DNA of 42,718 nucleotides, from the NCBI GenBank assembly GCA_002718655.1, contig PBFM01000045.1, positions 1-42,718 on the forward strand. The letters are read 5' to 3'. The notes below the pieces were generated by a model. The model was given only the letters and a program-made list of their open reading frames with translations. It had not been told where the DNA came from and did no database searches. The DNA is from Fidelibacterota bacterium. Its GTDB lineage: Bacteria > Fidelibacterota > Marinisomatia > Marinisomatales > UBA1611. Below, piece by piece: positions 5,913 to 42,718 of this stretch; within the stretch, counting starts at the first letter, position 1; every line of letters starts with the position of its first letter. A program made the position numbers and the translations under genes.

Positions 5913-6111
5913 TCTCGTTGGCGATTGCTTCGATCGCCGTTCTCATTGCCTCCGGGTCGTTAGCTGACGCCGCCGCGATAAGGTTTACGACATTGTCGTC
6001 GATCTTGTTGGTGGTAAAGCTGGCGGCCATGCGAGCGCCCCAAATTGCCATCTTTTCGGTAAGAAAAGCGGCACCCAAATTTTTAAGCACGGTTAATAAA
6101 AACAGTTTCAT
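5884..6111 (-). CDS. Small protein of the lysis cassette, 75 residues
   Basis: The ATG overlaps the endolysin stop as ATGA. The N-terminal 32 residues are hydrophobic to amphipathic with scattered lysines (MKLFLLTVLKNLGAAFL then MAIWGARMAAS). The rest is a soluble acidic helical tail. It could be a membrane-active lysis accessory (pinholin-like or antiholin-like), but the hydrophobic part is short for a classic holin. It ends within the convergent gene at 5912. Confidence 0.65.
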   Translation of the reverse strand: MKLFLLTVLKNLGAAFLTEKMAIWGARMAASFTTNKIDDNVVNLIAAASANDPEAMRTAIEAIANEIKTKDDQGV

Positions 6112-6617
6112 TGTAGTTCTACCCTTTTTGACAGCCAGCCGTCTAAAAACGCGCGGTTAGTCGGGCGAGTCCGGGCCAGTGCAATAAAATATTGTGATAT
6201 GAAAGAACGAAGCGCAACCGGCAACGCGTCCGGGTCTGCCTCTTTTGCGGCCGCTGCGGTCTTGCTTCCGACGATCCCGTCTTCTTTTAGCGCTAACTTA
6301 GTGCCACGACTAAAAGCGTTCACCGCGCGTTGTAGTGCGCGCCCTGCTTGGAATGGCCCGGCAACAACACAAAAATCTACGACTTGTTCGCGGACGTTGG
6401 CGGGAAGTTTCGAGGCGTTGACTGTGTCCCAAAATTCGCCCGAGTATATCGAAACGGCGAGATCGTAAGGTAGATCCGCCATGTCGCCCTCGTAGCCGTG
6501 GCGGCGGGCGGTCTTCTCGGTTATGCCGTAGCGAGTAGCGCCCCCGGCGTCGTTCGGGTGGTCTGAAAAGCCCCCCTCCCTTTCGATAATGCGTTTAATT
6601 ATGTCGGCTTTTTTCAT
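6108..6617 (-). CDS. Endolysin, GH108 family muramidase
   Basis: The start at 6617 overlaps the upstream TGA as ATGA and gives 169 residues beginning MKKADIIKRIIEREGGF. A longer in-frame start at 6686 would only add an atypical basic extension. The EGGF motif (E14 the likely catalytic acid), the following GGATRYGIT and the PxxAxxIYxxxFWD segment are the GH108 hallmarks. The C-terminal third fits the PG-binding-type domain usual in this family. It cleaves peptidoglycan glycan strands to release progeny. No signal peptide or SAR helix is visible, so it needs a holin. Confidence 0.93.
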   Translation of the reverse strand: MKKADIIKRIIEREGGFSDHPNDAGGATRYGITEKTARRHGYEGDMADLPYDLAVSIYSGEFWDTVNASKLPANVREQVVDFCVVAGPFQAGRALQRAVNAFSRGTKLALKEDGIVGSKTAAAAKEADPDALPVALRSFISQYFIALARTRPTNRAFLDGWLSKRVELQ

Positions 6618-7066
6618 GCTGCGGATCCCCTCGGGTTTCGATACTTTTCGACAATGCTCTGCAGTTCGCGCCGGGCGGGTTGCCATACTTGCGCGATCTC
6701 CCGGATCATATCATGTTTGCGGATAACGTCGGCGAGTTGCCCGGCGCGTATAGGTTTACGCAAGTAATCAACACAACCCAAATGAAGCGAGGCGATCGCG
6801 TGGTTGACGTCGTCCGAGGCGCTTAGAAACATGATCGGGATCTCGCGGGTGGCCGGGTTGAGTTTGAAGTCCCGGCAAAGTTCAAGCCCGGATTTATTCG
6901 GCATGATTATGTCGATAATTATAAAATCCGGCTTCAACTCTACGGCGACTTCGATCGCGCGTTCCGGGTCAGTGAGGGCGATCGCATTGTAGCCCTCCTC
7001 TTTCATAGCCTCGGTGATCAATTCAAGGCTGATCACGTCGTCGTCTATCAATAATACGGTGGTCAT
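6614..7066 (-). CDS. CheY-like response-regulator receiver protein
   Basis: This 150-residue protein is a complete receiver domain: acidic cluster D8-D9-D10, phospho-acceptor D52 in FIIIDIIMP, switch residue S82 in MFLSAS, and the invariant K104-P105 in YLRKP. After residue 118 there is only a short helical tail with no DNA-binding or enzymatic output domain. All phosphorylation residues are intact, so it should accept phosphate from a histidine kinase or small phosphodonor. It lies between a membrane coiled-coil gene and the endolysin, coupled to both by ATGA overlaps, which points to lysis timing or host signal interception. That function is inference. Confidence 0.93.
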   Translation of the reverse strand: MTTVLLIDDDVISLELITEAMKEEGYNAIALTDPERAIEVAVELKPDFIIIDIIMPNKSGLELCRDFKLNPATREIPIMFLSASDDVNHAIASLHLGCVDYLRKPIRAGQLADVIRKHDMIREIAQVWQPARRELQSIVEKYRNPRGSAA

Positions 7067-7503: not shown

Positions 7504-9648
7504 TTAACTCGACGATATGGTCGCGCCAAGCGCAACGCGTTTCCATGATCCGCCGTCACTTACCGCAAGGCACGGCGCGCCGCTGTCGCCGTCGGTTACG
7601 CCGATCGCCACCATGTAACGAGTGGACGGATCCGGGACGGTAGCGGTAGAGTAAATCGGCAATATTAGATCGCCGTTCATCTTAAGACCGTTCGGCGCGA
7701 TTGTCACCGCTGCGCGAACGCCCGTACCGTCGCCGAACACTACATACTGATAACCCGCCTCTAAAAACACCGTCCCACCCGCGCCGGTGGTTAAGGTGCA
7801 GCCGCCGTCGCTGTCATTTGTCACAACCCACATTCGTTCAAGCGGTGCAACGGTTAGAGTTCGAGACGTCCCCGGCGTGCCGCCTAATTGTATAACGGGT
7901 ACGTTTGATTGTTCAGCGCTTAACGTCACGTTACCGGCCGACACGTCGGCGTAAGCCTTACCCGTTGCGCCTCGGCTCCCGCCGTCAAAAAGAACATTCG
8001 ACCATGGTTTCCACCCCGAAGCGTTAGAGGTTTTTTGGCGGAAAGCCATGCCCGGGTTAGCGTTGCTGTTATCGACCGCGATCTGCGTCACGTATTCGCC
8101 GGAACCGGGGCTGAAATACTCACCCGAAACGGTGACGCTGAACACCCCTGCGGAGTCCGGGAAAGGATTGTCCCCTGCGGTCGGGTTGCTTGCGTGCGAA
8201 CCCCCATACCCGAAATAAAAGCCGCTTTGAGTCGTGGCGTCGATGTCGTTACCTACACACCCTTTGGATCGCTTCACTCCGTAGTCTAAGGCATTAATCG
8301 AATTACCCGTGTGTAATACCTCATACCAGTTAGTGAAAATTGACCCCGACCCCCCTCGTATGTATGCTTGAACTGTGTTGTCTTGCTCGGCACCCCTAAC
8401 ATAAATTTGGTTAAAGCCGTCGTCGTCACTACGGCCTAAGTTTAAAACGCTGGCTATACTCGATGTTAAAGGCGTTCCCACCTCCCCGCCGCTTGTTCTA
8501 TAAATACCGCTTATTTTGTTCGTGTTGAAGTTCCCGATTATCGGCGGGTCTTCTAAGCCCGGAACACCGATCCCGAATTGTTTAGCGTTAACGCTGTTCC
8601 CTGAATGGTAAAGCTCCCCGTCATAAGTCCAACCGTTACCATCCCTACGTAGTTTATGAATTGAATTATTGCTATTACTCATAGCCAGTATCGCGTCCGT
8701 ATTACGGCTGACATAGGCTAAGATGTAAAACGCATCGGGCATTCCCTGCGGAATATTTGCCGCCCCCGCTGGTACTGAAAGAAAACCCCCAAAGTTTAGG
8801 GGAATAGAGTCCCAATCATTAAAAACAGGAGCATCACCCCCTAAGCCATATCCCTTAAAGCTTTCTAAGAACGCCGACGCGCCTAAATTAGCGATCGCGG
8901 CTTCTTCTGCGTCCGTAAAAGCGTTCGTGTCTGCGTTCGACTCGTAAAGTGTTTTTATTTCTGCGGCTGTTAATTCACTACCGCCACCCGAACCGGCCGC
9001 CGCTGCGATCTCGGCCCATAAGTCGCGCCACCCTCCCCAAGTAGACGCCCCGACTTTTACGCGGTGGTGCGTAGAGTCGGATCGTTTAGTTTCGATAACT
9101 TCTACCGTGAATCGATCGGACTCTTTCACAAGCTTAATAATTGCGTTTACGTTAGTAGCCGATTTAAACGCGGGCGCGTTGGCTACGGCTGACACGTCGG
9201 AATGGAAAACGGAATAAAAACCCGTCTGGTACTGGTCTAGGTCGTTATAGTCCGTTAGCGTTATGAACTTGGCGTTAGTGCCTAGCCCGTATTCGGAAAA
9301 CTCAACGCCCGCGCCGCCCACGTCGGCGATCCCCGAAGCGCGGGCAACCACTACGCGTTCTTCGTCGAGTATTTCGAAGATCCACCCGGTCGGTAAATCT
9401 ATGTAATGCCATTCAGCATTGAAGCGAAAAGCGATCTTTCCCTCGTTGGGTGCCCAGTCGCCCGTCGCCCCCTCCGGGACAAAAAACGCGCTGCCCTCAA
9501 CCGGGACGCTCGGCGGCGTCGCGGTCGTTATGCTGTTAAGACTCGCGCCCGCGTATATGTCGAGCATGGCGAGCGCTTCGTTATGGGTTAAATGCTTACT
9601 GGCCTGAGATTGTGTGATCTCGGGTAGCTTAAGCCGTGCTGTTGTCAT
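7504..9648 (-). CDS. Tail fibre / receptor-binding protein with DUF2793 and pyocin-knob-like repeats
   Basis: The 714-residue protein begins with a DUF2793-type domain (residues about 10-115, with EGSAFFVPEGATGDWA and a W-x-Y-I-DLPTGW motif), found in fibres of gene transfer agents and related siphophages. Repeated segments containing QTGFY, ISGIYR or SGFYFG followed by N-containing loops and ending in W-x-x-x-L resemble pyocin-knob modules; four or so are visible. The final 150 residues form a beta-rich tip. It is the last structural gene, coupled by ATGA to the tail hub, and probably determines receptor recognition. Confidence 0.85.
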   Translation of the reverse strand: MTTARLKLPEITQSQASKHLTHNEALAMLDIYAGASLNSITTATPPSVPVEGSAFFVPEGATGDWAPNEGKIAFRFNAEWHYIDLPTGWIFEILDEERVVVARASGIADVGGAGVEFSEYGLGTNAKFITLTDYNDLDQYQTGFYSVFHSDVSAVANAPAFKSATNVNAIIKLVKESDRFTVEVIETKRSDSTHHRVKVGASTWGGWRDLWAEIAAAAGSGGGSELTAAEIKTLYESNADTNAFTDAEEAAIANLGASAFLESFKGYGLGGDAPVFNDWDSIPLNFGGFLSVPAGAANIPQGMPDAFYILAYVSRNTDAILAMSNSNNSIHKLRRDGNGWTYDGELYHSGNSVNAKQFGIGVPGLEDPPIIGNFNTNKISGIYRTSGGEVGTPLTSSIASVLNLGRSDDDGFNQIYVRGAEQDNTVQAYIRGGSGSIFTNWYEVLHTGNSINALDYGVKRSKGCVGNDIDATTQSGFYFGYGGSHASNPTAGDNPFPDSAGVFSVTVSGEYFSPGSGEYVTQIAVDNSNANPGMAFRQKTSNASGWKPWSNVLFDGGSRGATGKAYADVSAGNVTLSAEQSNVPVIQLGGTPGTSRTLTVAPLERMWVVTNDSDGGCTLTTGAGGTVFLEAGYQYVVFGDGTGVRAAVTIAPNGLKMNGDLILPIYSTATVPDPSTRYMVAIGVTDGDSGAPCLAVSDGGSWKRVALGATISSS

Positions 9649-41896: not shown

Positions 41897-42718
41897 ATGG
41901 CTCAATTCGACGAAAATCATGTGAGACTAGACGGCGGGATCGTAGTATGGGACGGCGTAACGCAACCCGAGACGCAACAACAAGGCGCGAACGCCGGGAA
42001 ACCTAAGTGGACGCTAAAAGTTGTTTTCCCACCGCAATGTCCTGATCTGCCTCTTTACGACCAACTAGCGCAAAAGCGCTTACGTGAAAGTAAGTTCAAA
42101 GGCAATTTACCGGCGGGCGGCCGTATGCCGATCGGCCAAGTTCAACCGGGCGAGTTTAACGACCTGTTCCCCGGCTGGCTGGTGATCAGCTTTAAAACGA
42201 CGTTACGCGCGCCGGACGTATACGACGAAAACGGCCAATTGCTCGACCCGATGCAATACGGGAACATGATCTACAACGGCCAAAAAGTTAACGTTTTAGC
42301 GCACTGCTACGACTACGACAACGCGGGTAATAAAGGCATTAGCGCCGGGTTAGACGGGATCCAAATCATTGCAAGCGCCAACGCTCAACGCCTAAACATT
42401 GGCGGCGGCGGCGTCGATACTGCGAGCGCATTCGGCGGCCAAGGCAACCAAGGCGGCGGTTACAACCAAGGCAACGGCAACCAAGGCGGCGGTTACAACG
42501 GCGGCCAAGGCAACGGTTACAACGGCGGCCAAGGCGGCGGTTACAACCAAGGCAACGGCAACCAAGGCGGCGGTTACAACGGCAACCAAGGCAACCAAGG
42601 CAACGGTTACAACGGCGGCCAAAACCAAGGCAACCAAGGCGGCGGTTACAACGGCAACCAAGGCAACCAAGGCAACGGTTACAACGGCAACCAAGGCAAC
42701 CAAGGCAACGGTTACAAC
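41897..42718 (+). CDS. SSB-like (DUF2815-type) protein, N-terminal part; runs off the window end
   Basis: The ATG follows AAGGAA. Residues 1-175 form an OB-type domain (WTLKVVFPPQCPDLP, GRMPIGQVQPGEF, ISFKTTLRAPDV, GQKVNVLAHCYDYDN) matching DUF2815 phage single-strand-binding proteins. VDTASAFGG follows. From about residue 181 to the window end (residue 274), nearly every residue is Gly, Asn, Gln or Tyr. The gene continues at base 2. The tail is at least 160 residues in total, far longer than in usual SSBs. It lies between DUF2800 and the exonuclease-polymerase genes. Confidence 0.88.
   Translation, partial: MAQFDENHVRLDGGIVVWDGVTQPETQQQGANAGKPKWTLKVVFPPQCPDLPLYDQLAQKRLRESKFKGNLPAGGRMPIGQVQPGEFNDLFPGWLVISFKTTLRAPDVYDENGQLLDPMQYGNMIYNGQKVNVLAHCYDYDNAGNKGISAGLDGIQIIASANAQRLNIGGGGVDTASAFGGQGNQGGGYNQGNGNQGGGYNGGQGNGYNGGQGGGYNQGNGNQGGGYNGNQGNQGNGYNGGQNQGNQGGGYNGNQGNQGNGYNGNQGNQGNGYN
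42432..42718 (+). repeat. In-frame tandem repeat of the SSB-like tail
   Basis: Units CAAGGCAAC, GGCGGC and GGTTACAAC recur with few substitutions. All Asn, Gln and Tyr codons are identical, and GGT is used only before TAC. The array continues at bases 1-205. Such a repeat explains why the sequence assembly opened here. Confidence 0.95.

Follow-up and report, generated by a model that had tools for sequence, protein, structure and literature searches.

A stand-alone CheY-like receiver gene paired with a membrane-helix gene among the lysis genes of Alteromonas phages

The receiver gene and its cassette

The window (the whole stretch of 42,718 nucleotides analysed here, contig PBFM01000045.1) is an R9Y-type Alteromonas siphophage, and its contig is about the size of a whole genome. 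On the reverse strand it carries a cassette in which a receiver gene lies between a membrane-helix gene and an endolysin gene (Table 1). Successive genes of the cassette overlap by 4 bases, with the partner stop and receiver start at 7063–7066, the receiver stop and endolysin start at 6614–6617, and the endolysin stop and the start of the 75-residue gene at 6108–6111. The coupling of the receiver to its two neighbours by overlaps, as an earlier note on this DNA had described it, was thus confirmed.

Table 1. Genes of the receiver cassette and its upstream neighbour in the window.
Feature	Coordinates	Strand	Remarks
Tail fibre gene	7504..9648	-	directly upstream of the cassette (context)
Membrane-helix partner, 121 aa	7063..7428	-	N-terminal transmembrane (TM) helix, residues 8–26, then a charged helical region
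Stand-alone CheY-like receiver, 150 aa	6614..7066	-	ATG start; phosphorylation residues complete; C-terminal helical extension
Endolysin, 169 aa	6108..6617	-	GH108 + PG_binding_3; likely start 6617
Last cassette gene, 75 aa	5884..6111	-	R9Y-type phages only; N terminus weakly hydrophobic

The sole Pfam match of the receiver gene product was Response_reg (PF00072), which covered residues 4–115 with 83.3 bits and exceeded the curated cut-off of 30.2 bits. In the alignment, D8, D9, D52, S82, Y101 and K104 were all retained, and the Pfam search found no output domain, the 150 residues being a receiver alone. AlphaFold2 predicted the CheY alpha/beta fold (pLDDT 86), ending in a long helix (residues 108–143), and approximately 25–30 residues past the CheY fold were predicted to be a helical extension of alpha-5. 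A Foldseek search with this model matched PDB at an E value of about 1e-11, and receivers in PDB superposed on it with TM ~0.9 over the target and an rmsd of 1.5 Å. The protein is therefore, as the earlier note had claimed, an intact stand-alone receiver with D8/D9, D52, S82 and K104 and no output domain. It shares its fold, catalytic residues and switch residues S82/Y101 with stand-alone receivers of the CheY/Spo0F type (PF00072), and its best PDB sequence match was the first receiver of PleD; in contrast to the CheY/Spo0F type, it is phage-borne, stands in a lysis operon and has a helical C-terminal extension.

Phages R9Y1-3 carry the receiver at 96–99% identity in the same place and order, and dN/dS was ~0.10 against R9Y2 and 0.11 against a relative at 75% identity. 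It is a real gene under purifying selection. A PhoB/OmpR-like transcription factor was rejected as an identity, as the C-terminal winged-helix DNA-binding domain is absent from both the window receiver and the ‘PhoB’ of Alteromonas phage R8W. Acquisition from a host with a close cellular parent was rejected as well: a pattern-based scan of an 84,980-species collection found no cellular receiver above ~41% identity, the nearest relatives found being only ~30–41% identical, and no close parent was present in 171 genomes of the class to which the metagenome-assembled genome (MAG) holding the window is assigned.

The partner gene has a strong Shine-Dalgarno sequence (GGAGG). Its product was modelled as all-helical at low confidence (AlphaFold2, pLDDT 60), and the helical part was predicted to be cytoplasmic by the positive-inside rule. 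It had no Pfam family and did not match the XhlA-type family profile. No other clear TM protein is encoded in the R9Y cassette, which makes the partner the best candidate for a membrane effector. Among the likely genes of the window phage genome, no canonical multi-TM holin was found. Neither a signal nor a SAR sequence was seen in the endolysin. The product of the last cassette gene was strongly conserved among R9Y-type phages and absent from all other phage records searched.

Recurrence in Alteromonas phages

Of 14 genomes of tailed Alteromonas phages scanned with a profile, ten had exactly one receiver and four (ZP6, AD45-P1, P24 and R7M) had none, so Alteromonas can be lysed without it. 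By tblastn, which differs in sensitivity from the profile search of the 14 genomes, receiver matches were found in 213 of 50,697 phage records, many of which are apparent bacterial contigs. IMG/VR searches with the PB15- and V19-type receivers gave no match. The phages with a receiver fall into six unrelated lineages: the R9Y siphophages, the T7-like Foturvirus phages H4/4 and R8W, the podoviruses V19 and R22Y, the siphophages PB15 and XX1924, the myovirus V22, and the schitovirus A5.

In all six lineages, the receiver gene directly followed a small gene for a helical protein with one TM segment, the two genes overlapping by up to 11 bases or standing up to 4 bases apart. The topology of the partner was uniform, with one TM segment and helices predicted to be cytoplasmic by the positive-inside rule. 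An Rz-type inner-membrane spanin was rejected as an identity for the partner, as the helices were placed in the cytoplasm and not in the periplasm in every lineage; V22 and A5 have an Rz-like gene apart from the membrane-helix partner. Outside the R9Y phages, a holin or holin-like gene separate from the partner was present.

The receiver sits among or beside lysis genes in each of the six lineages. It adjoins the GH108 endolysin in the window and lies near a class II holin and a 2-TM protein in Foturvirus, near an M15 endolysin (peptidase) or DUF5675 together with GTA_holin_3TM in PB15/XX1924, near a convergent holin-like membrane gene and DUF5675 in V19/R22Y, and near an Rz-like spanin, a 2-TM holin-like protein, and an endolysin or DUF5675 in V22 and A5, whose IMG/VR relatives also have an embedded lipoprotein of the kind usual for outer spanins. 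In the window and PB15 the receiver pair shares bases with the endolysin gene, and in V22 and A5 there is an overlap of 32–35 bases with the spanin gene. The window endolysin had relatives in 381 phage records, and only a small number of these can have the window receiver as well. The arrangement described for the window exists in other phages, and its recurrence in six unrelated Alteromonas lineages makes the link to lysis much stronger than the window alone did.

DUF5675 proteins recurred in lysis regions with no other obvious endolysin (L011 7027–7422, L017 2438–2836, L108 7829–8236) and may be lysis enzymes. In V22, a C92 papain-like amidase gene (L108 4960–5370) directly precedes the membrane-helix gene, and a very similar C92-amidase-like protein has the same position in an IMG/VR relative (L119); the V22 amidase is possibly an enzyme of the same operon.

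Six lineages do not amount to six independent events, as the receiver-partner pairs reduce to four groups. For the window and Foturvirus, homology extends to both genes, with 47% identity for the receiver and 34% for the partner, where homology covers the C-terminal 56 residues (shuffle p 0.002). Both genes are also homologous between V22 and A5. Between the four groups the receivers were only 10–30% identical and the partners had no reliable similarity; the shuffle values for window–A5 (0.01) and R8W–V19 (0.02) were marginal, given many comparisons of low-complexity helices. The PB15 partner matched the XhlA-type hemolysin family phrog_937 (E 1.8e-16). By sequence comparison, partner and receiver are inherited as pairs, and the module is either old and fast-evolving or was assembled several times, the weakly resolved tree of phage and cellular receivers fitting both.

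Lysis regions collect passenger genes and are known insertion spots, which counts against a role of the pair in lysis control. The pair could instead be a passenger (moron) with another late function, for example membrane superinfection exclusion or counter-defence, that landed repeatedly in an insertion-tolerant lysis region, and its absence from ZP6, AD45-P1, P24 and R7M is consistent with this. We regard such an origin as quite improbable in view of the overlaps with the endolysin and spanin genes and the XhlA-like partner of PB15. A defence system was rejected, as PADLOC gave no convincing match to known defence-system models. A tail-fibre module is common to P24, V22 and A5 (PMC10579305), yet P24 is without a receiver; this speaks for assigning the receiver to lysis and not to host recognition.

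Previous annotations and phosphorylation residues

In earlier papers, these receivers were treated as auxiliary metabolic genes (AMGs) of PhoB or CheY type, and no link to lysis was made. R8W g48 (‘PhoB’) and H4/4 gp44 form with their homologous membrane-helix partners the same gene order as in the window, but in these T7-like phages the receiver stands between holin and terminase genes. In the literature, R8W g48 appears as a metabolic gene, PhoB (PMC8228385). Its product (L009 6001–6462) consists of a receiver domain only, with no DNA-binding domain; judged from this sequence, the PhoB annotation and the low-phosphate adaptation inferred from it need correction. V22 gp30 and A5 gp11 likewise are stand-alone receivers that follow a one-TM helix gene and precede spanin and holin-like genes, but they are 20–25% identical to the window receiver and have partners whose homology to that of the window is not reliable. 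They were published as CheY-like class II AMGs and as part of a host-recognition module (PMC7289586, PMC10579305).

XhlA-type hemolysin/lysis proteins resemble the partners in having a single TM segment and a cytoplasmic coiled coil and in belonging to lysis cassettes. The PB15 partner matches them directly, whereas in the window partner, which matched no family, the TM segment is N-terminal. Lysis time can be set by small proteins, among them the T4 antiholins RI/RIII and further regulators of holins, and we know of none with a receiver domain. A literature search that reached few subscription papers, and whose silence is hence no proof, found no paper describing a lysis system with a receiver or response regulator. 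The earlier note had likewise known of no such system; that part stood, but the gene family was not new, being already annotated as PhoB in R8W and as a CheY-like AMG in V22 and A5.

The five key residues (D8/D9, D52, S82 and K104) were retained in five of the six lineages and in 9 of 11 aligned phage receivers, although receivers of different lineages shared only 20–47% identity. The dN/dS values of the phage receivers were 0.10–0.16. Phosphorylation of the receiver is thus probable in most lineages, as far as can be judged from the residues. The exceptions were V19 and R22Y, in which D52 is replaced by P or T, S82 by V, and K104 by I or L. These pseudo-receivers (L011 5998–6450 and L018 5001–5465, the R22Y record being unannotated) are still paired with a membrane-helix gene. 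As V19 and R22Y keep the pair without the phosphorylation residues, phosphorylation is dispensable there, and the module overall does not depend on it.

The retention of the partner gene and the lysis neighbourhood by these pseudo-receivers would also be expected if the receiver fold were a phosphorylation-independent adaptor, that is, a docking or folding (chaperone-like) partner for the membrane helix or the endolysin in which phosphorylation is vestigial. We consider this distinctly unlikely, given that the residues were kept in 9 of 11 receivers despite divergence to 20–30% identity between groups and that dN/dS was low.

A putative lysis-control unit

No histidine-kinase ATPase domain was detected on the window’s contig, so any phosphoryl groups would have to be derived from the host. 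Together with the intact residues in five lineages and the published assignments of the R8W and V22 genes to auxiliary metabolism (PMC8228385, PMC7289586), this is consistent with a hijack of host signalling, in which a late decoy, phosphate sink or mimic takes phosphoryl groups from an Alteromonas kinase, PhoR or CheA for instance, and redirects the regulation of the host, the helix only anchoring it near membrane kinases and the location among lysis genes being incidental. This explanation appears unlikely to us. There is no DNA-binding output domain, a factor for host reprogramming would be oddly placed among late lysis genes, the receiver always adjoins a membrane-helix gene of varying origin, and V19 and R22Y retain the pair without the residues. 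The phosphate sink, which the earlier note had offered as one of two possible roles, is less favoured, as it explains neither the fixed membrane-helix partner nor the pseudo-receivers.

We favour, with a probability of about 0.5, the reading that the receiver and the upstream membrane-helix protein are a two-protein lysis-control unit that is usually tuned by host-derived phosphorylation. The single TM segment would anchor the helix protein, and the receiver would dock on the cytoplasmic helices of that protein. Depending on the conformational state of the receiver, the helix protein would then help or block hole formation and the release of the endolysin. In five of the six lineages, phosphoryl groups donated by host kinases or by acetyl phosphate would probably determine this state, and lysis time would thereby follow a host signal. 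In V19 and R22Y, the receiver would be locked and would work without phosphorylation. The proposal of the earlier note that lysis timing is tuned by host phosphorylation is therefore retained in part: the link to lysis recurs in six lineages, but phosphorylation is not the whole story, as V19 and R22Y have lost the residues.

The timing of lysis is generally attributed to a holin clock intrinsic to the phage, and few external inputs are known. A more far-reaching version, which we put forward tentatively, is that lysis timing is wired to host two-component signalling, with a kinase-phosphorylated receiver switching a membrane antiholin or holin, and that this arrangement was built repeatedly with non-homologous partners in phages of one host genus. 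If so, the signalling state of the host (nutrients, stress) would act directly on when the cell lyses, and the module would account for genes currently filed as PhoB or CheY metabolic genes. The idea is directly testable in cultivable phage-host pairs, namely R9Y1 on A. macleodii ATCC 27126 and the phages R8W, V22 and A5 on their hosts.

The MAG that holds the window is not Alteromonas; its bin assignment of the contig is probably wrong, and the MAG is probably not the true host. The window’s contig and PBYJ01000001.1 are mentioned as two related MAG contigs in the R9Y paper (PMC9430817). The MAG assembly is 2.1 Mb, has very few two-component proteins and only two other receivers, and belongs to a small bacterial class. 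The contig end at 42392–42703 of the window is repetitive and of low complexity, its minus strand reading as a VVTAALVAL-type repeat.
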